A stretch of 64,000 bases of DNA from Parvularcula bermudensis HTCC2503 (lineage in GTDB: Bacteria; Pseudomonadota; Alphaproteobacteria; Caulobacterales; Parvularculaceae). How positions within the stretch are numbered: position 1 is the stretch's first letter; each line of letters starts with the position of its first letter. This document shows, one piece after another, positions 15,757-37,633 of this stretch. The position numbers and the translations under genes were made by a program. The DNA lies in contig NC_014414.1 in the NCBI RefSeq assembly GCF_000152825.2, forward strand, positions 2,768,501-2,832,500. Reading direction: 5' to 3'. The notes under the pieces are model-generated. The model was not told the DNA's origin. It was given only the letters and a program-made list of their open reading frames with translations, and searched no databases.

Positions 15757-16998
15757 TTATTCGGCGCGATCCGTCATTTCGGTGAGGGGAAACCGAAGGC
15801 TGTGCCGCGTAAATTGCTCAAGATAAGGGAGCGGCGCGGCGCTGTCGAACTGGCTGCCGTCGATGAAACGGTCGACCGGCATCGAGATGGCAGATGACCC
15901 GCTACCCAGCACCCAGTCATCAGCATGCGCCCCTTCAATGATATGGGGGCTGCCGGGCGTGGGGATGCCTTCCTCTCGCGCTACATTGCCAAACAGGTCC
16001 GCGCGGTAGGATTCCCGGACGGCACTCGCCACGTCTACCGGGCGGGTGATCTGACCCCACCTTATCATCTGCATGGCGAGCCAATGCGCCTTTGAATGCC
16101 ACGGATACCCGGCCACCGACGGATCAAATGTCGATGCCATTACAGGCGCAGGCCCGGTGGCAAAGGACGGCGCAATATCGTCTTCGCCAATGCCCAAATA
16201 GGGCTCGCGAGCCAGATACCGGATCGCGGCTTGTCTGCCTTCTTCCGTCCCCAGACGCTTGAGCGCCCGAAGCACCGCCCGTACGAGGCGCAGATAGACC
16301 TCTTCGTTCTCTGCAAGCCACGACCGGCGGACACCGAGCACCTTCTCCGGTGCCGCCGCCCAGACTTCCGCCCCCGCCAGAATACGGCGTCCCACCCCCC
16401 GGTGAACGGCAACGCTGTTCCAAGGCTCCCCAACGCAGAACCCGTCGATACTCTCCGCCTCGCATAGTCGCGCCATGTCGGGCGGGGGGGCAACGATCAG
16501 TCGGACATCCCGGTCCGGATGCAGACCGGAGGCGGCCAGCCAATATCGCAACAGGTAATTGTGCGTCGAAAAGGGATAGACCATCGCAAGGGTGATGGGA
16601 GACTTGCCGCGATGCAGGCGCCGGGCAGCGATTGTCCGCAAGGCTTCCGCGGGCACAGGCTGCATGTTTGGCGTATCCGGCTGGACGTCCAGCATCTCTT
16701 CGTACAAAGAATTGGAAACCGTGATGCCGTTGCCGTTCAGGTTGAGGCCGAGGGCTGTGGCGAAGGGCTCGCACCCCGGCTCAAGCTTCAATGCCGACGC
16801 GATCACCATCGGCGAGAGCATGTGCGCTGCATCGAGATCGCCAATCGCCAGCTTGTCCCGGACGCGCGCCCAGGAATGCTCCTTTGACAATGTGACATCG
16901 ATGTCGAATGCGTCGAAAAGCCCCTCTTCCTTCGCAAGGACAAGAGGCGCTGCATCAGACAGCGGAATAAATCCGATCGTCATGGTGTTCTTCGCCAT
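15757..16998 (-). CDS. nasS: NasS-type nitrate/nitrite sensor (NrtA-like, cytoplasmic)
   Basis: A 413-residue protein of the NrtA/CmpA/NasS nitrate-binding family, starting MAKNTMTIGFIPLSDAAPLV with no signal peptide or lipobox, so it is cytoplasmic. It contains the family ligand regions (GLNLNGNGITVSNSLYEEML and GFCVGEPWNSVAVHRG). NasS binds nitrate or nitrite; without ligand it sequesters the antiterminator NasT. The gene lies three bases after nasT, the usual pairing, at the distal end of the nirB-nirD-nasA-cobA-nasT-nasS operon. An ABC-transport role is unlikely because no permease or ATPase of the NrtBC type is encoded nearby. Confidence 0.87.
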   Translation of the reverse strand: MAKNTMTIGFIPLSDAAPLVLAKEEGLFDAFDIDVTLSKEHSWARVRDKLAIGDLDAAHMLSPMVIASALKLEPGCEPFATALGLNLNGNGITVSNSLYEEMLDVQPDTPNMQPVPAEALRTIAARRLHRGKSPITLAMVYPFSTHNYLLRYWLAASGLHPDRDVRLIVAPPPDMARLCEAESIDGFCVGEPWNSVAVHRGVGRRILAGAEVWAAAPEKVLGVRRSWLAENEEVYLRLVRAVLRALKRLGTEEGRQAAIRYLAREPYLGIGEDDIAPSFATGPAPVMASTFDPSVAGYPWHSKAHWLAMQMIRWGQITRPVDVASAVRESYRADLFGNVAREEGIPTPGSPHIIEGAHADDWVLGSGSSAISMPVDRFIDGSQFDSAAPLPYLEQFTRHSLRFPLTEMTDRAE

Positions 16999-17001
16999 CG
17001 G

Positions 17002-17604
17002 TCAAACCTTCCCCAACAGGTCGGCAATCGACAAGATCTCAGCCGCGATCTGCTTGAGCGGCTTGCCGGAGGTCATCGAGCTCTCGCGCATGAGGTCATA
17101 GGCGGCCTTTTCGGACATGCCGCGCTTTTCCATCAGGATCCCCTTGGCCCGCTCGACGGTCTTCCGGGTCTCAAGATCATCTTTGGATTTCTGAAGCTCC
17201 TTCCACAGACCATCGACCATCTTGAACCGCTCGATCGCGATTTCGATGACCGGCAGGACACGCGAGCGGGACAGGCCATCGACGATATAGGCACTCACGC
17301 CGGCGCGAACGGCTTCCTTTGCCAGCGTCCCGTCGCCGTCCTCCACGAACATGACGATGGGCTTGGGGTTCTCGCGTGCGACGGTGCGGAGGTTCTCGAT
17401 GGTGTCGCGATCCGGCGAGTCGCAGTCAATGATGATCGCATCGGGCTGTAACTCGTTGATTCGGTCGAGGAGGCCCACGGAAGAAAGATCATTCGCTAGC
17501 CGTACGACGGCCCGATCCTTCAGGCCATCCTGCACTATGGCCGTGCGATGCGGATCGCTGTCGATAAGAAGGACGATCAGAGGGGGCGTCTGCGCTTCGC
17601 TCAC
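17002..17604 (-). CDS. nasT: NasT ANTAR-domain transcription antiterminator
   Basis: A 200-residue response-regulator-like protein. An N-terminal receiver domain (LIVLLIDSDPHRTAIVQDGL) is followed by a coiled stretch and a C-terminal ANTAR RNA-binding domain (VERAKGILMEKRGMSEKAAY, then LMRESSM). NasT binds paired hexaloop hairpins in leader RNAs and prevents formation of an intrinsic terminator; NasS inhibits it when nitrate is absent. Start is a GTG at 17604. It sits between cobA and nasS in the nitrate operon. Candidate RNA targets are found in this window at 27162-27237 (porin leader) and 30588-30646 (transporter leader). Confidence 0.93.
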   Translation of the reverse strand: MSEAQTPPLIVLLIDSDPHRTAIVQDGLKDRAVVRLANDLSSVGLLDRINELQPDAIIIDCDSPDRDTIENLRTVARENPKPIVMFVEDGDGTLAKEAVRAGVSAYIVDGLSRSRVLPVIEIAIERFKMVDGLWKELQKSKDDLETRKTVERAKGILMEKRGMSEKAAYDLMRESSMTSGKPLKQIAAEILSIADLLGKV

Positions 17605-21077: not shown

Positions 21078-21423
21078 GACGCGACGCCTCGGCCTTCAGC
21101 CCGCGCAGATCGATCAGCACCCGCCCACGGCGGACTTCGACCGGATGGGTCACGACCCTGCCCTCGTCAGGACCGCGCGCCGATCCGGTTTCAAGGTCGA
21201 GGACGAGAGAGTGCAGCGGGCAGGTCACCGCTCGGTCATGGACAATCCCCTGGCTGAGCGGCCCACCCTTATGCGGGCATTGGTCGTTCAGGGCAAAGAC
21301 TTCATCGAGGGCCGTGCGGAAAACCGCGATGCAGGTTCCTCCTGCCTTTACCACCCGCGCCCCGCGCGGCGGAATGTCTGCCAACGCACACACGTCGATC
21401 AGCGTTTGGTCGAGGACATCCAT
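21064..21423 (-). CDS. nirD: Nitrite reductase small subunit (Rieske-type)
   Basis: A 119-residue Rieske-like [2Fe-2S] domain protein with the CPHKGGPLSQG and CPLHSLVLDLETG boxes. NirD is the small subunit of NADH-dependent assimilatory nitrite reductase. The ATG at 21423 follows GGAGG by seven bases and shares its first base with the nirB stop (TGATG), so it is coupled to nirB; an in-frame TTG one codon earlier is less likely. Both Cys-His pairs of a canonical Rieske cluster can be seen, whereas many NirD proteins lack them, so this one may bind a cluster. Confidence 0.92.
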   Translation of the reverse strand: MDVLDQTLIDVCALADIPPRGARVVKAGGTCIAVFRTALDEVFALNDQCPHKGGPLSQGIVHDRAVTCPLHSLVLDLETGSARGPDEGRVVTHPVEVRRGRVLIDLRGLKAEASRHALR

Positions 21424-23870
21424 CAAACAGCCTCCAATTCCCGTGAGATAGTGATGGGCTCGAACTCATGGGCATCCTTTCCAGCCACTCTCGCTGCCCA
21501 CGGATCATCCTGCATGAACTGCTGCGAATAGACGAAACGATCGTAATAGGCCTGTCGTTCGGCCGGGTCGTCGAGGGTATCCCGCACATAGTCGGTGCCC
21601 ACTTTTGCGGCCCATTTATAGATGCGATCGAGATACCATCCCTGCTCCCGATACATCTGCATCAGCGCGCCGATGTATTGTATGGCGTCTTTTTCGGTTG
21701 GAACCGTACAAAGAAGTTCCGTTCCTTTTACATGCATCCCCGCCGCTCCGGCATAGTGGATTTCATATCCGCTATCGACACAGACAACCCCGATGTCCTT
21801 GCACGTTGCTTCTGCGCAGTTTCGAGGACACCCGGAGACCGCAAGCTTGACCTTGTGCGGCGCCCACGATCCCCACAGAAATCGTTCGAGCTTGACGCCA
21901 AGCCCTGTGGAATCCTGCGTCCCGAACCGGCACCAGTCGGTCCCCACGCAGGTCTTCACAGTCCGCAGGCCCTTGGCGTAGGCATGCCCGGAGACGAGGC
22001 CTGCCGCGTTGAGGTCGGCCCAAACGGCGGGCAGATCTTCTTTCTGGACCCCGAGCAAATCGATCCGCTGGCCCCCCGTGACCTTCACCGTGGGAATCGC
22101 GAACTTATCCGCCACATCGGCAATGGCGCGCAGTTCGCTGGGTGAAGTCATTCCCCCCCACATGCGCGGCACCACCGAATAGGTCCCATCCTTCTGGATG
22201 TTCGCGTGGACACGCTCGTTGATGAAGCGGGACTGTCCGTCATCGACATACTCTCCGGGCCAGGCACAGACGAGGTAGTAGTTGATCGCGGGGCGACATT
22301 TCGCGCATCCGCAGGACGTCTTCCACTCAAGCTGTTGCATGACCGAGGGAATGGATTTGAGCTCGCCTGCCACGATCAGGCGGCGGACCTCGTCATGGCT
22401 GAGGTCCGTACAACCGCAGACGGGCTTCACCGCATCTGGATCAAATTCATCGCCGAGGGTCAGGGCGAGCAGCTGTTCGACCAGCCCCGTGCACGACCCG
22501 CAGGAGGCGGACGCTTTGGTATGGGCACGGACCTCATCAATCGTGGTCAGCCCCTCGCCGGTGATGGCGCCTTCGATCTTCGACTTGCACACGCCGTTGC
22601 AACCGCAGATTTCTGCGTCACCGGGCAACGCTGCAACGGCCGCCATAGGGTCCGGCGCCCCGCTGCCCGCAAACGCCGGACCGAAGATCAGCGTATCGCG
22701 ATACTCCGACACGTCCGTGCGGTCCTTGATGTGCTGGAAGAACCAGGCGCTGTCTTTGGTATCGCCATAGAAGACGGCACCGACGATCCTGTCACCTTCG
22801 AGCACAAGACGCTTGTAGATGCCTTTCGCCGCATCGCGGAACACGACCTCTTCACGCCCCTCACCGGTCTGGAAATCGCCAGCGGAGAAAAGATCGACGC
22901 CGGTGACCTTGAGTTTCGTTGAAACTTCAGAGCCCAGATATTCCGCTTCGCAATCTTCGCAAAGCTGCGCGGCAATAACCTTCGCCATCTCGTAGAGCGG
23001 AGCGACGAGACCATAGCAGATGCCGCGATGCTCGACACACTCGCCCACGGCAAAGATGTCAGGGTCCGAGGTGCGAAGATCATCACCGACGACGATGCCA
23101 CGACCAATTTCGAGGCCGGCGTCCTTAGCCAGCTCCGTGCTGGGACGGATACCGGCCGCCATGCAGACCAGATCGGCCTCGATAACACGCCCATTGTCCA
23201 GACGGACGCCCTCCACCCTCTCCGTGCCGAGAATTTCCTTCGTATTGGCCTTGGTCAGGACCTCGATGCCCCGGCGCTCTATCGCTGCCTGGAGGAGATG
23301 GCCTGCTGGCTCGTCCAGCTGCCGCTCCATCAGGGTCGGCGCGAGGTGAAGCACCGTGACGTCCATCCCCCGCTTCTTGAGGCCAACGGCAGCCTCCAAC
23401 CCCAAAAGCCCGCCGCCGATGACGACCGCGCGCCCGCCCTGCTCGGCGGCGGCCAGCATTTTTTCGACGTCATCGAGGTCACGGTAGCCGAGCACGCCAT
23501 CAAGGTCGTGCCCGGGAACGGGAATGATAAAGGGCGTCGATCCAGTCGCGATCAGGAGCTTGTCATATTCTGCCTGCGTTCCATCCGCCGCAGTGACGGT
23601 CTTCCGCTGTCGGTCGATTTCCGTCACCCGCTTGCCGCGGTGAAGGGTAACGCCGTTTTGTTCGTACCAGGCGTCGTCGTGGATGATGATGTCCTCGAAG
23701 GCCTTCTCACCGGAAAGGACCGGCGAGAGCATGATCCGGTCGTAGTTGACGCGAGGCTCGGCGTTGAAGATCGTGACGTCGTACGCGCCCGGCGCGCGCT
23801 CGAACAGATGGTCGAGCACCCGTCCGGGAGCCATGCCGTTACCGATGATGACGAGACGGTTGCGTGCCAT
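21423..23870 (-). CDS. nirB: Nitrite reductase [NAD(P)H] large subunit
   Basis: An 815-residue flavo-siroheme enzyme that reduces nitrite to ammonium in the cytoplasm. Domains in order: FAD/NAD-binding oxidoreductase (NRLVIIGNGMAPGRVLDHL, then VVIGGGLLGLEAAVGLKKRG), two BFD-like [2Fe-2S] segments (ICGCNGVCKSKIEGAITGEG and PVCGCTDLSHDEVRRLI), a ferredoxin-like half domain and the siroheme/[4Fe-4S] domain (GTDWCRFGTQDSTGLG; VSGCPRNCAEATCKDIG). The ATG at 23870 has AAGGGGA six bases upstream and matches the family N-terminus; the open frame continues to 24053 but through leader sequence. It is the first gene of the six-gene nitrate operon. Confidence 0.93.
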   Translation of the reverse strand: MARNRLVIIGNGMAPGRVLDHLFERAPGAYDVTIFNAEPRVNYDRIMLSPVLSGEKAFEDIIIHDDAWYEQNGVTLHRGKRVTEIDRQRKTVTAADGTQAEYDKLLIATGSTPFIIPVPGHDLDGVLGYRDLDDVEKMLAAAEQGGRAVVIGGGLLGLEAAVGLKKRGMDVTVLHLAPTLMERQLDEPAGHLLQAAIERRGIEVLTKANTKEILGTERVEGVRLDNGRVIEADLVCMAAGIRPSTELAKDAGLEIGRGIVVGDDLRTSDPDIFAVGECVEHRGICYGLVAPLYEMAKVIAAQLCEDCEAEYLGSEVSTKLKVTGVDLFSAGDFQTGEGREEVVFRDAAKGIYKRLVLEGDRIVGAVFYGDTKDSAWFFQHIKDRTDVSEYRDTLIFGPAFAGSGAPDPMAAVAALPGDAEICGCNGVCKSKIEGAITGEGLTTIDEVRAHTKASASCGSCTGLVEQLLALTLGDEFDPDAVKPVCGCTDLSHDEVRRLIVAGELKSIPSVMQQLEWKTSCGCAKCRPAINYYLVCAWPGEYVDDGQSRFINERVHANIQKDGTYSVVPRMWGGMTSPSELRAIADVADKFAIPTVKVTGGQRIDLLGVQKEDLPAVWADLNAAGLVSGHAYAKGLRTVKTCVGTDWCRFGTQDSTGLGVKLERFLWGSWAPHKVKLAVSGCPRNCAEATCKDIGVVCVDSGYEIHYAGAAGMHVKGTELLCTVPTEKDAIQYIGALMQMYREQGWYLDRIYKWAAKVGTDYVRDTLDDPAERQAYYDRFVYSQQFMQDDPWAARVAGKDAHEFEPITISRELEAV

Positions 23871-23890
23871 TGCGCATCCCCTTTCGACGG

Positions 23891-23977
23891 CGAGCGGCGA
23901 ACCGCTCGGTTGATGGAAGCAGTTGATGTCCATCCGCTCGAAACGAGCGGCGAACCCACTTTTCATCGTCGAAAAGT
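23891..23977 (-). promoter_or_regulatory. nirB leader with alternative hairpins
   Basis: In the nirB leader (transcribed right to left) there is a 7-bp hairpin ACTTTTC/GAAAAGT with a six-base loop GACGAT (23977-23958). Then come four copies of one 7-mer or its complement: CCGCTCG (23950-23944), CGAGCGG (23940-23934), CGAGCGG (23908-23902) and CCGCTCG (23897-23891). The first can pair with the second or third, and the fourth with the third or second, so mutually exclusive folds are possible. The last hairpin ends about eight bases before the ribosome site. No T-run follows, so translational control is as plausible as attenuation. Confidence 0.5.
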
Positions 23978-24066
23978 AAGGAGGCGCAGACATTGCGCTG
24001 CACCAATACTGGCACGAAAATGCCTCTCCCGCAATGGGATACCCCCGAAACAATCGTCAGGAAGCT

Positions 24067-24705: not shown

Positions 24706-24743
24706 GATCCAACGCTGGCATAATTCTTCGCGAGGATGAATTG

Positions 24744-25928
24744 ATGATCTCTGTCGACGATGCGCTTCGCCAGATTGGCAGCTCCCTGAAGCCCTTGCCC
24801 AGCGTGACGGTCCCCGTCGGCGAGGCCGCCGGCAGGATCCTGGCCGAGGCGGTGAGAGCGAAGGTGACGCAACCGCCCACGGCCGTTTCCGCCATGGACG
24901 GCTACGCCGTGAACATGGTCGCGCCCATGACCGCCGGCACGCAGATCCGGGTTCTGGGCGAAGCTCCCGCGGGACGACCCTATGTGGGCACGCTCACCGG
25001 CGGGGCCGTGCGGGTGTTTACTGGCAGTGCCATGCCCACCGGCGCGAACCACGTCATCATCCAGGAGCATGTGGAGAGGCATGGCGACACCGCGACGCTC
25101 ACCCATGACCAGCGGGCTGCCCGCAACGTCCGACCCGCCGGGGGCGACTTCGCAGAAGGAGACGTCCTCGCCCCCGCCTTGCGCTGGCTGTCGCCGATCG
25201 ATCTTTCATTGTTGAGCGCAGCAGGCGTGGTGGAAACCTCCGTCTACAGACGCCCTCGCATTGCCTTGTTCGCAAATGGCGACGAACTCGTCCCGCCGGG
25301 CAAAGATCTGGCCCGCGGGCAGGTCTACGAATCTCTTTCAACGGGGCTTCTCCCGCTTCTCGATAGCTGGGGCGCTGAGGCCTGCTTTCTTGGGATCGCC
25401 GCCGACCGCGAGAGCGCCGTGGAAGCGATGTTCGAGGCTGCTAGCGACGCCGATATTGTCGTTCCGATCGGCGGGGCCTCCGTCGGTGACTACGACGTCG
25501 CCAAGGCGGTCGGCCGCAAACGATTCGACCTGTACGTCGAGAAGGTGGCGGTGAAACCCGGCAAGCCCGTCTGGTTCGGCACAAAGGCAGAGCAGGCAGT
25601 CCTGGGGTTCCCTGGGAATCCCGCCTCGGCTTTCGTCTGTGCACACCTGTTTCTTCGCCCTGCCCTCCAGGCCCTCAGCGGCGGCGAACCAAGGCTCGAC
25701 CTTCGAACGGCGATTCTCGACGCTCCCCTTCCGCCAAACGGTCCACGCGAGCACTTCATGCGGGCGAGCGTCGCAGAAGAGGCCGAGGGCCGACTGGTCT
25801 GCCAGCCAGCGGCGCGTCAGGACTCCTCCCTGCTGTCGACCTTCGCCGCCTCGAATGCCCTGCTCCGGCGCGGGCCCAATGAGGAAGCCCGCGCTGCGGG
25901 CGACCCTGTCGCGGTGCTTCTTTTCTAG
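24744..25928 (+). CDS. moeA: Molybdopterin molybdenumtransferase MoeA
   Basis: A 394-residue MoeA. Motifs: PPTAVSAMDGYAV (about residues 46-58), GTGAMP-like VFTGSAMPTGANHVIIQEH, then the MPT-binding domain with RIALFANGDELVPPG, VPIGGASVGDYDVAK, KVAVKPGKPVWFGTK and GFPGNPASAFVCAHLF. It inserts molybdate into adenylated molybdopterin. The ATG at 24744 is preceded by CGAGGA; the TTG at 24741 is an alternative. It is divergent from mobA and convergent with the porin gene. The first motif GGxSVG Asp is present, so the enzyme looks intact. Confidence 0.92.
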   Translation: MISVDDALRQIGSSLKPLPSVTVPVGEAAGRILAEAVRAKVTQPPTAVSAMDGYAVNMVAPMTAGTQIRVLGEAPAGRPYVGTLTGGAVRVFTGSAMPTGANHVIIQEHVERHGDTATLTHDQRAARNVRPAGGDFAEGDVLAPALRWLSPIDLSLLSAAGVVETSVYRRPRIALFANGDELVPPGKDLARGQVYESLSTGLLPLLDSWGAEACFLGIAADRESAVEAMFEAASDADIVVPIGGASVGDYDVAKAVGRKRFDLYVEKVAVKPGKPVWFGTKAEQAVLGFPGNPASAFVCAHLFLRPALQALSGGEPRLDLRTAILDAPLPPNGPREHFMRASVAEEAEGRLVCQPAARQDSSLLSTFAASNALLRRGPNEEARAAGDPVAVLLF

Positions 25929-25934
25929 CCGCGT

Positions 25935-27146
25935 TCAGTACGACCACCCGAATTGGAGCCAGAGCTTCGTCCGGTCGGTTGCCAACTCATCGGCGCGATA
26001 GTGAGCGAGCTTCAGGAGACCAGACACCCGGTCCATCCGGACAGAGAGAAGCGCGTCGACTTCCTGCCCGTACCGATCGCCGCCCCCCGCATCGGCAAAG
26101 TCATGGTAGGTCGCGGCGACCTTCACCGCATTGAACGGACCGATTGCCGGAATGTCGAACGCCGCGCCGGCGTAGACGTCCCGCACCCCTTCCGCAGGCG
26201 TCGAAAGAAACACATCGGCATAGCCGTCGAACTTGTGCAGGGTCGCAAGAGGCGTCGAGAACGGAATATCGTCATCGCTTCCCAATATCTCAGCCCCCGC
26301 CGTGAACGCGCCCGGCGCGGCATGGTACGTCCCCTCTAGGGAGGCGTAGCCGGCGGCATAACGCTCCTGCCGGTCGGCATAATCCGTCTGCCATGCACCG
26401 CGCACCCTGCCGGAAAACGAACCGGCACGCGCTTCCGCCGAAGCACCATAGGTTTGTGAGGACTGGCCGGGCGCATCATCATCGAAATCTAACAGGTAGG
26501 CGAAGCCGGACACCGTCGCCTCCATACCCTGCAGGCCCAGCCTGTAATCCACATCCGCGATCAGGCTGTTGGACTCCCAACGGCCCATCGGTGAGCGGTC
26601 GCCGAAAATCCGGTTTACCTGAGCGATAAACGCCGCATCGATGGTCAGCCCCTCTGCCGGTCGATGGACGACCCGGAGGGCATCGAAGGTCTGCTCGTTC
26701 TGGCGCCATCCGACATTGCCGACAAACCGCGCATCGTCGTGGATAATCCGCTGGCGTCCGATGACGAAGGTCGTCGACGCGAGGGAGGTATTCGTCAGCT
26801 GGAACCGGTTCAGTTCGGTCCCTTCTGGGTCCGGGACGACGGGGTACTGAACCTCGCCATTGATCGTGGAGTTGTACTGCTCCTCATGCGCCTCGATATG
26901 TTCGACATCGACGAGGAGCTTGGTAGCTTTGAAGCTCCCGGTCTCGAACCCGACCCGTAGGCGGCTCGTGACGGCCGAAGCGTCCTCCGAGAACCCGTCC
27001 TGATCGACGGTTTCATATCGCAGTCGATAATCCAGGATCGGCGTGGCCGCCGCCACGGCCTGGGCGAAATCGCCACGGTCATCGGCGAGCGCCTGGGTAG
27101 AAGCGAAAAGGCCGCAAAGCCCCGCCGCGAAGGATGTCGTCCGCAT
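25935..27146 (-). CDS. Outer-membrane porin (alginate_exp-like beta-barrel), probable nitrate-island porin
   Basis: A 403-residue protein with a signal peptide (MRTTSFAAGLCGLFASTQALA, cleavage after ALA) and an all-beta sequence ending in aromatic residues (LWLQFGWSY), as expected for an outer-membrane barrel. It matches the alginate-export-type porin family: TPILDYRLRYETVDQDGF, VIGRQRIIHDDARFVGNVGW with the RQ(R)I box, and NSLIADVDYRLGLQGMEATV. It is third in the order narK, kinase/phosphatase, porin. A leader with paired hexaloop hairpins and a terminator stands 15 bases before its start, so nitrate or nitrite passage and NasT control are inferred. Confidence 0.78.
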   Translation of the reverse strand: MRTTSFAAGLCGLFASTQALADDRGDFAQAVAAATPILDYRLRYETVDQDGFSEDASAVTSRLRVGFETGSFKATKLLVDVEHIEAHEEQYNSTINGEVQYPVVPDPEGTELNRFQLTNTSLASTTFVIGRQRIIHDDARFVGNVGWRQNEQTFDALRVVHRPAEGLTIDAAFIAQVNRIFGDRSPMGRWESNSLIADVDYRLGLQGMEATVSGFAYLLDFDDDAPGQSSQTYGASAEARAGSFSGRVRGAWQTDYADRQERYAAGYASLEGTYHAAPGAFTAGAEILGSDDDIPFSTPLATLHKFDGYADVFLSTPAEGVRDVYAGAAFDIPAIGPFNAVKVAATYHDFADAGGGDRYGQEVDALLSVRMDRVSGLLKLAHYRADELATDRTKLWLQFGWSY

Positions 27147-27161
27147 ATCTTGTTCCCCGAT

Positions 27162-27180
27162 AAAAAGGCGCAGAAGCGCC
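27162..27180 (-). terminator. Intrinsic terminator in the porin leader
   Basis: On the reverse strand GGCGC-TTCT-GCGCC is followed by TTTTT, a compact factor-independent terminator only 15 bases before the porin ATG at 27146. Because it lies before, not after, the gene it serves, it is best read as a conditional attenuator within the operon. Confidence 0.8.
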
Positions 27181-27193
27181 GGTTGGAAGATCG

Positions 27194-27237
27194 CGGAACG
27201 TCGTTGTTCCGAGTGCTTGAGCGGCCCGTTCCGCTCA
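27194..27237 (-). promoter_or_regulatory. Dual-hexaloop RNA motif, candidate NasT (ANTAR) target
   Basis: Two hairpins stand six bases apart on the reverse strand. The first (27237-27218) has arms TGAGCGG/CCGCTCA and loop AACGGG. The second (27211-27194) has arms CGGAAC/GTTCCG and loop AACGAC. Both loops are six bases with A at position 1 and G at position 4, the known requirement for ANTAR-protein binding. A terminator follows after 13 bases. This is the standard arrangement of NasR/NasT antitermination leaders, and nasT is in the same island. Confidence 0.8.
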
Positions 27238-27257: not shown

Positions 27258-29003
27258 TCAGCCGACGAATAGGACGTAGAGAACCACTAACAGGAAGAAT
27301 TGCAGTGCGCAGAGCGCCTGCCAGAAAAGAAGCGGATTCCGATCGATGAGCGCGTGGGACTGGGCCCGGCGTTCGGCTAGGCGCCCGGGCCGGGACAGGT
27401 CGGCTTCGAATTCAGAAAGCGCCGGTGTTCGCGCGACGGGGTCCGGTTCCAGCGCGCTCTCCAGCGCGGCATCGATGAATACCGGAAGGTCGCCGCGGCG
27501 TCGCGACAGCGGGATATACTGCCAGGACCGTATCCTGCTGGGGACGCGGTGCGCGCCCAGGCCCTCCGAAAAGGGCAGCGCGCCGCTCAACATTTCGTAG
27601 GTGATGGCAGCGACGGAGAAGAGATCGGATCGGTCGGTTGCCGGGTCCCCCAGTATATATTCAGGTGCGGAATAATTGAGAGATCCCTCCCCCGCCCATG
27701 AGAGGTGGACGCTGGCTTCGTCCAGCCCGGCAATCGCCGCCGAGCCGAAATCGATCAGCTTAATCCGCCCATCGCTCAGGACCAGAATGTTCTCCGGCTT
27801 GAGATCACGATGCAGCACCTGCTGGCGATGGGTCTCTCTCACCGCCAGGACGATATCGTGCAGGACGCTCCTCACGGTGGGGAGGTCCGGCTCGGGATGA
27901 TCGATCATCCACTGGCGCAGCGTCTCACCCTCGATCCACTCCATCAGGAGGTAGAGAAAGGGCGTGTTCCCCGTCGAGTAGGTGCGCAGGATGCGGTCCG
28001 ATCCGATCTTTTGGCCGAGCCATTCCTCCCGCGCGATAGCCTCGACGATGCTCACCTCGTCGGTCGCGCGCGCCGTCGGCGCCTTGAGGGCGAACACACC
28101 GCCATCCCCATCCCGCACTTTATAGACGCTGCTCCGCACCCCGCGATGCACGACACGGTCCACCGTGTAAGCATCAATTTTCTGCCCAGGGCTGAGGTCC
28201 GGCAGGAATGCCCTTCCGGTCAGCCTCGCCTCGCGTTCCGGCGCGGTCTCCGCCGGGAGAGCGTCAACCCGGACGCACAGCGCCGTCACATTGTCCTCGC
28301 TGCCATTTTCGATCGCACGCTCGCACAGGCTTCGCGAAAGCGTTTCCAGATCGGGATAAGTCACCATCAGCAGGCGCTGTAATTCGGAGGCGCGAACCGC
28401 TGCAGTGACGCCGTCGGAAAGAAGAACGAACAGGTCGCCCGCCTGCGCCTCGTCCTTGGTGAAACTGGCAGAGAGGTGAGCCTCCGCCCCCAGCGCCGCC
28501 GTCAGCACCGCCTCATCGAGGCTCAATGGGAGGCTATGTTCGCGCGTGAGCCTCTGCCAATTTTCCCCGCGTAGCCGCCAGATGCTGGAATCCCCGACCT
28601 GCGCGAGATGCACCGTGCACCCCTTGATGACGAGCGCGCTGAAGGTCGTGGCCATCGCCCCATCCGGGGATCGTGCCTGGGCGTAGAGCCACGAGTTGAG
28701 CGTGGTCAGGCTCCGCCTGGCGGTCGCCTCGACTGTCCAGGTCGGCGAGGCCGAATAGAGGTCATCAATGAACTGCCCGACCGCCAGCTGGCTGGCCGCA
28801 GCGGCTCGGGGGACGCTCGACAGACCGTCTGCGACGCAGGCCACGACCCCTTTTTCCGTCCGCTCGACCTCGTCATGCGGGCTATGGGCGGCAAAGGCAT
28901 CCTCGTTGACCGGCTTCCTTCCGGCAGCGGAATAACCGCCGATCTCTACGAGAAGAGAAGGAGGGGCGACGGGGGCGCCCCGGAGCATAGTCGATGCTTG
29001 CAT
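27258..29003 (-). CDS. Bifunctional PP2C-type phosphatase / serine-threonine protein kinase, membrane anchored
   Basis: A 581-residue fusion. Residues about 20-245 are a PP2C phosphatase (GRKPVNEDAFAAHSP, VACVADGLSS, LAQVGDSSIWRL, VLLSDGVTAAV, NGSEDNVTALCVRV). Residues about 275-530 are a Hanks-type kinase with an unusual glycine loop (VVHRGVRSSVYKV), the VAIK-type Lys in FALKAP, catalytic HRDLKPENIL and metal-binding IDFGSAAI. A single C-terminal membrane helix follows (LFWQALCALQFFLLVVLYVL). Such fusions recur beside NarK-type nitrate transporters in Proteobacteria. It begins 22 bases after narK, so it probably modulates nitrate uptake by reversible phosphorylation; the substrate is unknown. 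Confidence 0.88.
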   Translation of the reverse strand: MQASTMLRGAPVAPPSLLVEIGGYSAAGRKPVNEDAFAAHSPHDEVERTEKGVVACVADGLSSVPRAAAASQLAVGQFIDDLYSASPTWTVEATARRSLTTLNSWLYAQARSPDGAMATTFSALVIKGCTVHLAQVGDSSIWRLRGENWQRLTREHSLPLSLDEAVLTAALGAEAHLSASFTKDEAQAGDLFVLLSDGVTAAVRASELQRLLMVTYPDLETLSRSLCERAIENGSEDNVTALCVRVDALPAETAPEREARLTGRAFLPDLSPGQKIDAYTVDRVVHRGVRSSVYKVRDGDGGVFALKAPTARATDEVSIVEAIAREEWLGQKIGSDRILRTYSTGNTPFLYLLMEWIEGETLRQWMIDHPEPDLPTVRSVLHDIVLAVRETHRQQVLHRDLKPENILVLSDGRIKLIDFGSAAIAGLDEASVHLSWAGEGSLNYSAPEYILGDPATDRSDLFSVAAITYEMLSGALPFSEGLGAHRVPSRIRSWQYIPLSRRRGDLPVFIDAALESALEPDPVARTPALSEFEADLSRPGRLAERRAQSHALIDRNPLLFWQALCALQFFLLVVLYVLFVG

Positions 29004-29025: not shown

Positions 29026-30489
29026 TCAGGCGCTCACCGCGATCATGGTTACCGTCCCATCTTCGTTGATCTCGGCGATTTCTCCCCGCGGCTCCTCCAG
29101 CAGGAAGGAACAAGCCAGACCGACCAGGGCGGTGGCCGCAAGGACAAGGAAGAAGGCGGCCGCCGGGACCATGGAATAGATGACCAGGAAGACAACGGCA
29201 CCGACATTGCCGTAGGCACCGGTCAGCCCGGCGATCTGTCCCGTCAGCCGCCGTTTGATGAGGGGCACCATGGCGAAGACGGCTCCCTCGCCCGCCTGGA
29301 CGAAGAACGAACAGAGCATGGCGACCGCCACGGCAAGGAATACCGGCCATGACGAGCCGACCATCGCCATCAGAAGGTAACCGACGACGACACCGGCCAT
29401 CAGCACGATCATCGTCAGCCGTCTGCCGAACCGGTCGGAGAAGACGCCGCCACTGGGGCGGGAGACGAGGTTCATGAAGGCATATCCGGAAGCGACCATC
29501 CCGGCGAGAACGGGGCTGAGACCAAACGTCTCCGCAAAGAACAACGGCAGCATGGAAACGACCGCCAGCTCCGACCCGAACGTCGCGGCATAGAGGAAGT
29601 TGAGCGCCGCAACCTGCTTGAACTTGTAGCGGTGGATGAGAGGCACTTCTTCGGTAAAGACCGACTTATTGACCTCATAGGCCTGCCAGGCATTGAAGGC
29701 GTAGTAGGCTGCCAACAGCAACCAGATCGCATACTGGACGGGTTCGGATATCAGCCCCACACGTTCCAGCCGCCAGGCGAGAATGCCGAGTGCGATTTGC
29801 AGGGGTGCCTTCATGATCAGGAGGAGAAAGAAATCGCCCTTGCTCGTCACCTCCATCGCGCGGGTCTGCTTGGCCTTGAAGTAGCGAGAGCCCTCGGGCG
29901 CATCGCTCACATTGCGATAGTACACGAACGAATAGGCAAGCGCGACCAGACCTGTCAGCGCGATGGCATATCGCCATCCCTCATCACCGCCGAAGATGAG
30001 GGCAATGGAGGGGAGCGTGAAGGCGGCAGCAGCGGACCCAAAATTGCCCCAGCCCCCATAGATCCCCTCGGCGGTACCCACCTCATTCGGCGGGAACCAC
30101 TCGGAAACCATCCTTATACCAACCACAAAGCCGGCCCCGACAAAACCGAGCGCAAATCGGGCAATCGCAAGCTGGGTAAAATTGTCGGCAAAGGCAAAGG
30201 CGAGACAGGGAACAGCCGAAAATGCGAGAAGGCCGGAATACACTTTCTGCGGGCCGAAACGGTCCGTGAGGGCACCAATAAGGATCCTGGCTGGGATGGT
30301 CAGTGCCACGTTGAGAATAAGCAACGTGGATATTTGGCTCTTGTCGAGATCGAACGTCACGCGCACCGCTTCGGTCAGCGGGGCGAAATTGAACCAGATG
30401 ACGAAGCTGATGAAGAACGCCACCCACGTCATGTGGAGGATCTTCATCTTGCCTGAGAAGGACAATAAATTCAGTCTGTCAGCGGACAT
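29026..30489 (-). CDS. narK: Nitrate/nitrite transporter, NarK family (MFS)
   Basis: A 487-residue, 12-helix major facilitator protein. The N-terminus has FISFVIWFNFAPLTEAVRV, typical of NarK/NrtP proteins. Nitrate signature-like stretches are GGWGNFGSAAAAFTLPSI (helix 5) and GAYGNVGAVVFLVIYSMVP (helix 11), each a glycine-rich segment with the conserved Gly-Asn. It imports nitrate for the NasA-NirBD pathway. It starts an operon with the kinase/phosphatase and porin genes. Its ATG at 30489 is preceded by a 340-bp leader region with a hexaloop hairpin and an intrinsic terminator. Confidence 0.92.
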   Translation of the reverse strand: MSADRLNLLSFSGKMKILHMTWVAFFISFVIWFNFAPLTEAVRVTFDLDKSQISTLLILNVALTIPARILIGALTDRFGPQKVYSGLLAFSAVPCLAFAFADNFTQLAIARFALGFVGAGFVVGIRMVSEWFPPNEVGTAEGIYGGWGNFGSAAAAFTLPSIALIFGGDEGWRYAIALTGLVALAYSFVYYRNVSDAPEGSRYFKAKQTRAMEVTSKGDFFLLLIMKAPLQIALGILAWRLERVGLISEPVQYAIWLLLAAYYAFNAWQAYEVNKSVFTEEVPLIHRYKFKQVAALNFLYAATFGSELAVVSMLPLFFAETFGLSPVLAGMVASGYAFMNLVSRPSGGVFSDRFGRRLTMIVLMAGVVVGYLLMAMVGSSWPVFLAVAVAMLCSFFVQAGEGAVFAMVPLIKRRLTGQIAGLTGAYGNVGAVVFLVIYSMVPAAAFFLVLAATALVGLACSFLLEEPRGEIAEINEDGTVTMIAVSA

Positions 30490-30587: not shown

Positions 30588-30615
30588 AAAAAGCCGCCGT
30601 GTTCGTCCACGCGGC
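30588..30615 (-). terminator. Intrinsic terminator in the narK leader
   Basis: Reverse-strand arms GCCGCGT (30615-30609) and ACGGCGGC (30600-30593) pair with one bulge and are followed by TTTTT (30592-30588). It lies about 98 bases before the narK start, with no other gene to terminate on that strand, so it is probably an attenuator. Confidence 0.65.
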
Positions 30616-30624
30616 GAGGAAAAG

Positions 30625-30646
30625 ACCCGTTCCCCTTTGAACGAAT
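30625..30646 (-). promoter_or_regulatory. Hexaloop hairpin in narK leader, candidate NasT site
   Basis: Reverse-strand arms ATTCGTTC and GAACGGGT (two G-U pairs) enclose the loop AAAGGG, six bases with A1 and G4. It ends nine bases before the terminator. A second hairpin upstream (AAAACC 30685-30680 with GGTTTT 30655-30650) encloses a long loop, and a clear second AxxGxx loop was not found there, so the match to the dual motif is partial. Confidence 0.55.
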
Positions 30647-30828
30647 CCGAAAACCACTAATGCAGCTTATCGCGAGATCGGTTTTAGTTCAAGCGTTCGT
30701 TGTGTGTTGCAACAAAGGCCGCAAAAAAACGCCATGCAATGACCGAAATTAGCATATATCTGCAAGCGCGGCGCGGGACGGACGTTGCCGGTGGCTGCTT
30801 TTTCCGCCCCGCTTTTGCTTGAGCTTGC

Positions 30829-35447: not shown

Positions 35448-37619
35448 CTAAAAATCGAAGTCGAGCCGGACGGCGTAGGTCCGCTCCGCCCCCAGGCGGG
35501 AGAACTCGTCACCGGGCGAAATGACGTTCAACGAGGTGAAGTACTGCTCGTCGAGCGCGTTCTTCACATAGGCACTCAGCTGCATATTCTCCGAGAACTG
35601 ATAGCCAAGCCGAGCATTCACCAACATGCGCTCGCCGAATTCGTTGACATCGAAGTTCTCGTTATCCTGATACATTTTGGACTGATGATTGACATCGACG
35701 CCGCCGAAGAGCCCGCTCGGGTGGCGGTAGTCCATCCCGGCATTGAGCGACCAGCGAGGGGCGAACGGAAATCTGTTGCCAGAGAAATTTTCCTGATTGC
35801 TCTCGCTATCGGGCAAATCCGGGTCGTAATTCGCGTTCGGGAAATCATCGAACTCAGTATGCGAATACCCAAGGCCTCCATAGACGAGGAGGTCAGGCGT
35901 GACCTCGACAGCCATATCGGTCTCGAAACCATAAAGCGTTGACTCCCCGGCATTGATCGTCGTGAAAAAGGTTGGGAAGTCCGGGACCGGCTCGTTGACC
36001 TGCTGATCGCGCCAGTCGGCATAAAAGACGTTCGTGTTCCACTGGATCCGGCCGTCGAGGAAATTCGTCCGTGCCGCCAATTCGTAGTTCCAGAGAAATT
36101 CAGGTTCAAACCGGTCGATACTGCCGTTAAGGGTAAGGATCTGCGCGCCCCCCGCGCGGTAAGCGCGTTGGACGACAAAGGACAGTGTCGCATTCGGATG
36201 GGCTTCCCACCGCACACCGCCTTTCGGCAACCACGCCTCATAGGACGCGTCGACCTCACTGGTTTCTTCGCCGAGCAGGGCTTCGAGAAATTCAAAGCCA
36301 GCAGGCAGCGGCGGATTAGCGATGGACGTGATGGCCGTCGCCACGCTGTCCTGCTCTTCCTTGTCGTAGCGCAAGCCAAAGAGGAGATCTATTGACGGCG
36401 TCATCTCGTACTCGCCGTCAAAAAAGCCGGCGTAATTCGTCGTCTCGTTGCTGTTGGCCGAGACCCGGGAAACGAGAATAGTGGCGGGCAGGCTCGGATC
36501 GACGATCGTGGCCGGGACAATGAAGCTGTCGTTGAACCCATCTTCATTCGTAAAATAATAAAAACCGAGGACACCCTCGAAACGGTCCCCCAGATATTTC
36601 GCTCTGAATTCTTCGGACCAGGCTTCATCCACTCCCGTACGATCGAGGGCCGCGATCGGGGCTGATGTGTTGTCGAAATCCTCCTGCCGGGTGTAATCTG
36701 TGTCCTGATAGGTCGTGATCGACTGAAGCTCGATCCGGTCGGAAAGCCGCCATGTGGCGTTGATCGACTGGATGAAAGTCTCGGTCCCCTCGAGGCCGGG
36801 CGTGTCATAATCGACCTCGCGGATAACGTCGCCCGCATCAAGTGGCTGACCCGGAACCCCATTGGTCGGATCGACATTGTCTTCGCCGGCGAAGTTCTCC
36901 GTGTAGGACGATGTCGAGATGATCGAGATCCTATCCGTCGGCTCGAACAGGAGCTTGAAGCGTCCAGTCTTCAGCTCGGCGGCATCGGCCTCTTCATTGA
37001 GGAACGTGTTGAAGATGAAGCCGTCGCTTTCGCGATAATTGGCCGCGGCGCGGAAAGCCAGCTTGTCCTCAATGATCGGCCCCCCAACGGCCACGGCGCC
37101 CTGGGCAACGCCATTGTTGCCCGCCTCGGCCCGCACTCTGACGTCCCAGTCATAGGTCGGGTCCTGGGTCCGAACATAGATCGCCCCGGCAAGCGCGTTC
37201 CGACCGAAATTGGTCGATTGCGGTCCGCGATAGACTTCGACCTGCCCGAGGTCCCAGCTATCAAGGGGGCCGAAGAAGGTGGTGAAGTTTCCGAGGGGCG
37301 AATCATCCACATAGACCGTAAGGGTCGCGCCGTTGCCCGCGATCCCGCGCTGGTCGATCCCTCGGATCGCGAAACCGAGGCCGCCAAACGATGAGGTCAC
37401 GTTCGGGATGCGATCGACCACGTCATAGAGGTTGACGATCGGCTCACGGAGAATTTCTTCGCTGGTCGTCACATCGACGCTGGAGGTGACCTGATCGAGG
37501 GACTGCTCGATCTTCTGGCCCTGGACGACGATGACATCCCCGTCGCCCTGCGATTGGGCCGCGGCACTCGCCGCCCCCAACAACGCAAGCCCCGATGCGG
37601 CCCCCAACAGACGCTTCAT
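35448..37619 (-). CDS. TonB-dependent receptor, probable ferric-siderophore type
   Basis: A 723-residue outer-membrane receptor. Signal peptide MKRLLGAASGLALLGAASAA; TonB box-like region VIVVQGQKIEQSLDQVTSSV; plug domain with FGGLGFAIRGIDQRG and VEVYRGPQSTNFGRNALAGA (residues about 75-160); then a 22-strand barrel ending in aromatic YAVRLDFDF. ATG 37619 has AGGAG seven bases upstream; the GTG at 37625 is too close to it. It heads an operon with two small membrane proteins and PepSY, and two Fur-like boxes precede it. The ligand cannot be told from sequence. Confidence 0.88.
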   Translation of the reverse strand: MKRLLGAASGLALLGAASAAAQSQGDGDVIVVQGQKIEQSLDQVTSSVDVTTSEEILREPIVNLYDVVDRIPNVTSSFGGLGFAIRGIDQRGIAGNGATLTVYVDDSPLGNFTTFFGPLDSWDLGQVEVYRGPQSTNFGRNALAGAIYVRTQDPTYDWDVRVRAEAGNNGVAQGAVAVGGPIIEDKLAFRAAANYRESDGFIFNTFLNEEADAAELKTGRFKLLFEPTDRISIISTSSYTENFAGEDNVDPTNGVPGQPLDAGDVIREVDYDTPGLEGTETFIQSINATWRLSDRIELQSITTYQDTDYTRQEDFDNTSAPIAALDRTGVDEAWSEEFRAKYLGDRFEGVLGFYYFTNEDGFNDSFIVPATIVDPSLPATILVSRVSANSNETTNYAGFFDGEYEMTPSIDLLFGLRYDKEEQDSVATAITSIANPPLPAGFEFLEALLGEETSEVDASYEAWLPKGGVRWEAHPNATLSFVVQRAYRAGGAQILTLNGSIDRFEPEFLWNYELAARTNFLDGRIQWNTNVFYADWRDQQVNEPVPDFPTFFTTINAGESTLYGFETDMAVEVTPDLLVYGGLGYSHTEFDDFPNANYDPDLPDSESNQENFSGNRFPFAPRWSLNAGMDYRHPSGLFGGVDVNHQSKMYQDNENFDVNEFGERMLVNARLGYQFSENMQLSAYVKNALDEQYFTSLNVISPGDEFSRLGAERTYAVRLDFDF

Positions 37620-37633
37620 ACCCACACTCCTAA

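Follow-up and report, generated by a model that had tools for sequence, protein, structure and literature searches.

A dual-hexaloop leader before the porin gene in the nas island of Parvularcula bermudensis, a probable NasT target with predicted competition for the ribosome site

The nas island of Parvularcula bermudensis HTCC2503 lies on the minus strand of the 64-kb stretch of DNA analysed here (the window), part of a 2.9 Mb genome on a single contig, and runs in the order narK, PP2C-kinase, leader, porin, mobA, nirB, nirD, nasA, cobA, nasT and nasS (Table 1). The island is interrupted between porin and mobA by moeA, which is encoded on the plus strand (24741-25928) and is convergent with the porin gene. 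The gene between narK and porin is a PP2C-phosphatase/kinase fusion, and the narK-kinase pair is also found in other alphaproteobacteria, at times directly 5' of nirB (L268, L269). Outside the window, at G000:C1:2377318-2378418, the genome encodes another porin of this family, with 37% identity. The nas island of Henriciella aquimarina (L131/L137) is much closer to that of the window (NasT 84% and NirB 82% identical) than is that of the same-genus genome G057 (NasT 74% identical), and these identities suggest horizontal transfer of the island.

Table 1. Genes and leader features of the nas island in the window
Feature	Position	Strand	Remarks
narK-family nitrate/nitrite transporter gene	29026..30489	-	
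PP2C phosphatase - Ser/Thr kinase fusion gene	27258..29003	-	stop codon end at 27258
porin-like outer-membrane gene	25935..27146	-	ATG at 27146; weak Pfam Alginate_exp match, under its cut-off
nirB nitrite reductase gene	21423..23870	-	start set by comparison with relatives
nasT, receiver-ANTAR protein	17002..17604	-	sole ANTAR match in genome
nasS-like nitrate-binding sensor gene	15757..16998	-	
P1 hexaloop hairpin TGAGCGG-AACGGG-CCGCTCA	27218..27237	-	7-bp stem
P1-P2 linker AGCACT, 6 nt		-	
P2 hexaloop hairpin CGGAAC-AACGAC-GTTCCG	27194..27211	-	6-bp stem
Terminator-like hairpin GGCGC-UUCU-GCGCC, -9.0 kcal/mol	27167..27180	-	no overlap with P2
U5 tract behind GGCGC/GCGCC hairpin	27162..27166	-	
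P2 3' arm and flank GUUCCGCGAU	27190..27199	-	complementary to 27161-27152: 9 pairs, one G-G mismatch
porin Shine-Dalgarno region AUCGGGGAAC	27152..27161	-	
narK leader hexaloop hairpin GATTCGTTC-AAAGGG-GAACGGGTC, 9 bp	30624..30647	-	
narK leader terminator-like hairpin GCCGCGUG-GACGAA-CACGGCGGC, then U5	30588..30615	-	
nirB leader upstream hairpin GCGC-AATGTCT-GCGC	23984..23998	-	7-nt loop with A1 and G4; conserved block; read by eye
nirB leader hexaloop hairpin CTTACTTTTC-GACGAT-GAAAAGTGGG (CTTTTC-GACGAT-GAAAAG)	23955..23980	-	loop position 1 is G, not A
nirB Shine-Dalgarno region CGUCGAAAGG	23880..23889	-	10 bp with CUUUUCGACG of hexaloop hairpin

Between the kinase and porin genes (27237-27162), two hexaloop hairpins, P1 and P2, followed by a hairpin with a U5 tract before the porin ATG, are present as described in the initial annotation of this DNA, on the minus strand. 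Both loops (AACGGG and AACGAC) have A in the first position and G in the fourth, the kinase stop codon lies 20 nt 5' of P1, and the porin Shine-Dalgarno (SD) region, at 27161-27152, is outside the hairpins, at least 32 nt (about 35 nt) 3' of P2. With stems of at least 5 bp, this is the only dual A..G hexaloop in the 64 kb, against an expectation of 0.2 for each shuffled window; when the stem minimum was raised to 6/6 bp, the window contained one and 200 shuffled windows contained four in all. The whole window yielded no Rfam match at gathering scores, and none was found near the leader at E values up to 10.

A single match to ANTAR genes was found in the genome (72.7 bits), namely NasT, encoded in the same island as had been stated at the outset. 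For comparison, we used 75 stretches of relatives (L061-L135), 74 around ANTAR genes of family or order relatives and one porin contig, along with 80 porin loci with organism names and 30 loci from class relatives; the relatives' loci were picked by protein similarity, independently of the hexaloop motif. Of the AAYGRN loops within 230 nt 5' of the nas porin, nirB, narK and nrtA genes, 48/232 on the sense strand were borne on stems of at least 5 bp, compared with 1/124 on the opposite strand there and 149/15469 elsewhere; the density of such hairpins was 1.00 versus 0.03 per kb, an approximately 30-fold sense-strand enrichment in counts that still include some near-duplicate loci. The covariance search with a dual-hexaloop model that had been proposed as a check was carried out with a model (R1) built from nine leaders of relatives, the window sequence being left out. 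Over the 64 kb, the porin leader came out on top, at 21.1 bits (E 0.012). Next was the narK leader, at 13.2 bits (E 0.55), a match that pairs a different P1 and is not significant alone. Genome-wide, 150 of 422 candidates were scored, and the matches listed included three other places (16.1-16.7 bits) but not the porin leader.

The distribution of such leaders is patchy. A hairpin homologous to P2 precedes the porin gene in Henriciella (L131/L137), L061, L062, L063, L140 and L199. Among 30 porin-homologue loci (L002-L031), taken mostly regardless of nas setting, the strict dual hexaloop was present only in the window's own copy; L217, a close relative by porin sequence, has no such leader, and no hexaloop hairpin was found at the internal nrtC-porin junctions of L148, L153, L156 and L161 or at the kinase-porin junction of L175. 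MAFFT alignments of the porin and nirB leaders were poor beyond the conserved blocks and were excluded from pair counts.

The leader is similar to the ANTAR dual-hexaloop antiterminators (EutV/eut of Enterococcus faecalis, NasR/nasF of Klebsiella and AmiR) in its tandem hairpins, whose 6-nt loops both carry A1 and G4, the short linker, the position upstream of a nitrogen gene and the presence of an ANTAR protein; eut leaders located inside an operon, as here, are likewise mentioned in the available text of PMC3369931. The single ANTAR gene, the upstream motif enrichment and the window-free covariance model all back the initial reading of an ANTAR-type dual-hexaloop target, and we consider it highly probable that the element is an intra-operon ANTAR target with two hexaloop hairpins. 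It is very probably a target of NasT, whose binding we infer. No report of NasT leaders before nitrate porins was found in the open-access literature searched, in line with the earlier remark that such control is not usually described for these genes, but the leaders themselves are not rare, given that 36 of 82 rows for nas-linked porins, near-duplicate rows counted, have an A..G hexaloop hairpin within 400 nt upstream.

The initial annotation further envisaged that NasT could switch on only the distal outer-membrane gene, a restriction that is not supported, as narK and nirB, too, have hexaloop hairpins upstream of them, both in the window and in relatives. NasT therefore probably acts on three units (porin, narK and nirB). 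The narK hairpins of Henriciella are CGGTC-AATGGC-GACCG and CCGTG-GATGGA-CACGG; in the window, the narK terminator was indifferent to its hexaloop hairpin (P 0.475 free, 0.473 with the hairpin held). The nirB stem is also present in L061 and L131, with loops GACGGT and GATGGC, and loop position 1 can be G in leaders of relatives as well as in the nirB leader of the window. Such G-type hairpins are rare before nirB: 7 R-A-Y-G-R hairpins, two of them of the CTTTTC type, were counted across 55 nirB upstream regions.

In the window, the 3' arm of P2 and its flank can pair with the porin SD region (Table 1), and the internal leaders of relatives show similar pairings. Seven internal (intra-operon) porin leaders were analyzed (window, L137, L061, L062, L063, L140 and L199), L215, with nrtC 457 nt upstream and loops AAGGGG and AAAGAG, being excluded. 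The pairing was spotted before testing, and the discovery set consists of these seven porin leaders plus the nirB leaders of the window and L131. The P2 segments paired with their own ribosome sites at a mean of -15.0 kcal/mol versus -11.5 kcal/mol with the sites of the other six leaders, and 9 of 5040 permutations were as good. When P2 segments were shuffled 2000 times each, those pairing as well numbered 21 for the window, 188 for L137, 2 for L061, 25 for L062, 17 for L063, 83 for L140 and 518 for L199.

Once the ribosome site has been transcribed, the computed probability of P2 falls from 0.53 to 0.004 in the window, from 0.99 to 0.000 in L061, from 0.90 to 0.03 in L062, from 0.86 to 0.000 in L140 and from 0.93 to 0.000 in L137 (0.265 with a shorter tail); the corresponding values are 0.99 and 0.63 in L199 and 0.13 and 0.12 in L063. 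Holding P2 in the window lowered the cost of opening positions -16..+6 by 3.4 kcal/mol. This gain concerns the whole site: the SD bases by themselves did not become more accessible when P2 was held (mean unpaired 0.59, compared with 0.66 free), and in the minimum-energy fold it is the start region, not the SD, that is paired. The own-site penalty exceeded that of natural porin ribosome sites in 118 of 118 comparisons for the window and for Henriciella L137, 117 of 118 for L061 and for L062, and 111 of 118 for L140, with no specific competition in L063 (51/118 null sites as good) and L199 (18/118). Predicted own-site competition is thus specific in four of the seven internal porin leaders (window, L137, L061 and L062), marginal in L140 and absent in L063 and L199; a permutation test on the penalties among the seven was weaker (167/5040).

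A wider set of 54 leaders was obtained from 76 rows by removal of five near-duplicates and of leaders without an in-range AAYG hexaloop. With a shorter 5' context, the foreign sites that matched the own site in this set were 4 of 53 for the window, none for L061 and L062, 2 for L131, 3 for L199, 10 for L140 and 18 for L063. Penalties were larger in the 38 leaders without an overlapping terminator than in the 16 with one (Mann-Whitney p 2.8e-5; p 1.3e-4 with the discovery set removed), the rows being related, not independent; the rank form of the test was weaker (p 0.023; p 0.075 with the discovery set removed). For nirB, the own-site penalty was 5.9 kcal/mol in the window, 3.3 kcal/mol in L131 and 3.3 kcal/mol in L061, above every null site (175, 174 and 174, respectively), and before the ribosome site is made the hairpin was only moderately populated (0.083 in L131, 0.213 in L061).

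NasS holds NasT in the absence of nitrate. In the mechanism that we propose, without nitrate, NasT would be sequestered by NasS and P2 would give way to pairing of its 3' arm with the porin ribosome site and start region, such that the porin message, carried on the narK-kinase transcript, would be poorly translated; with nitrate, free NasT would bind and hold P2, leaving the ribosome site uncovered. We infer both the co-transcription and the direction of regulation. The U5 hairpin would serve as a fixed partial attenuator or as the 3' end of the narK-kinase message, without itself being switched by P2, and the same logic would apply to nirB, where the 5' arm and loop of the hexaloop hairpin would pair with the ribosome site. 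Ribosome-site release, that is, translational activation, is the main mode that we favour for the porin leader, although we put this forward tentatively and consider it slightly less likely than not. With somewhat greater reserve, we suggest that NasT could be a nitrate-dependent translational activator, the hairpin competing with the ribosome site within operons (porin, nirB) and with a terminator at other leaders, two outputs of one ANTAR protein that would have been swapped in evolution.

The hairpins themselves are of the known ANTAR kind, and the output mode is probably new: descriptions of ANTAR proteins so far concern antitermination or, for actinobacteria, repression of translation, and the open-access literature searched yielded no natural case of an ANTAR protein activating translation by releasing a ribosome site. 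If true, natural activation of translation by an ANTAR switch would extend the family's mode of action, and one nitrate sensor could tune single genes within an operon. NmPAL carries an ANTAR domain. In the engineered NmPAL riboptoregulator, as outlined in the available text of PMC11381354, a protein on a hairpin aptamer similarly unblocks a ribosome site and turns translation on; that system is designed and light-driven, whereas the case in the window would be natural and nitrate-driven.

Several other readings of the leader have to be weighed. NasT on P1 and P2 might control porin transcription by blocking termination at the U5 hairpin, not through exclusive base pairing but sterically or by an interaction with RNA polymerase. 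The hairpin is at the expected place for a terminator, the 64 kb contain 3 perfect hairpins with at least 5 bp and a T5 run directly behind them versus 0.55 per shuffled window, and, of the 22 other porin leaders tested in relatives, 12 have a terminator that overlaps P2, for example in Parvibaculum and relatives (L142, L143, L220), versus 0 of 7 internal ones. Published ANTAR targets, however, depend on the overlap of P2 and terminator, which is used as a filter in the searches described in the available text of PMC3369931 and PMC8934654; the hairpin in the window starts 13 nt beyond P2, its probability up to the U-run is 0.987 when P1 and P2 are free and 0.993 when they are held, and none of the relatives' six internal porin leaders had a detected terminator. 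Unlike in the ANTAR antiterminators, the terminator here is not predicted to be excluded by P2, and we reject the classic antiterminator layout that the initial annotation had assigned to the leader, the probability of the hairpin being independent of P2. The U5 hairpin stands clear of P2, and its predicted folding is much the same whether P2 is held or free; it is likely real but not switched by P2 via base pairing, and we regard antitermination by the other routes as rather unlikely. Alternatively, the U5 hairpin could form the 3' end of the narK-kinase message, with NasT binding shielding or exposing the downstream porin message; the proximity of the kinase stop codon to P1 and the failure to find a promoter-like site on the minus strand between kinase and porin speak for such processing or stability control, which would leave the specific pairing of P2 with the ribosome site unexplained and appears improbable.

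Repression of porin translation by NasT would resemble the actinobacterial ANTAR RNAs, which are also controlled at the level of translation, and draws on the ANTAR translational repression reported in mycobacteria (PMC8164766, available text) and on the increase of Bradyrhizobium narK, which has a predicted NasT hairpin, in a nasT mutant (PMC6759348, available text). In the actinobacterial RNAs as presented there, the ribosome site is within the hairpins and binding represses, whereas the porin site is outside them, on the 3' side of P2, whose formation is predicted to open rather than close the site, with binding predicted to activate; we accordingly give repression little credence. Least probable of all, and very unlikely in our view, is that the hairpins are a NasT sponge or a functionless chance arrangement: the folding energy of the leader alone is ordinary (z -1.17, with 25 of 200 shuffles as good), but the motif is enriched upstream of nas genes and the leader was recovered by a model built without it.

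Ribosome-site release can also be set against NasS-NasT control in Paracoccus denitrificans and Bradyrhizobium, which involves the same regulator pair and gene set. In P. denitrificans, the nas transcript is made without nitrate, whereas Nas protein appears only when nitrate is present or nasS is mutated, with no mechanism given in the available text of PMC5424462. Three hexaloop hairpins (loops AACGGC, AATGAT and GACGAT) precede nasA in P. denitrificans HAMBI_2443 (L295:13867-13929), a U-run being absent in the stretch read. In this strain, which is not that of PMC5424462, the penalties of the nasA hairpins against the ribosome site were 0.26, 0.48 and 0.00 kcal/mol, that is, no competition, and a 7-bp complementarity to the ribosome site (-12.9 kcal/mol) did not displace a hairpin. 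This nasA leader thus does not account, by way of ribosome-site release, for the nitrate-dependent nas translation reported in P. denitrificans.

Further hexaloop hairpins were noted outside the nas leaders. A GGGCAAC-AATGGC-GTTGCCC hairpin on the minus strand of the window (about 37122-37103) lies within a large ORF (35448-37625) and is possibly due to chance. Dual hexaloops occur just 3' of other ANTAR genes (L072:5712-5672, L078:732-690 and L105:8183-8228). In Hyphomonadaceae-like stretches (L109:9733-9652, L117:9696-9615, L125, L126, L127, L129 and L132, at about 9.7 kb), runs of at least two hexaloop hairpins lie directly 3' of ANTAR genes with no nas genes annotated nearby, and these probably represent other ANTAR regulons.
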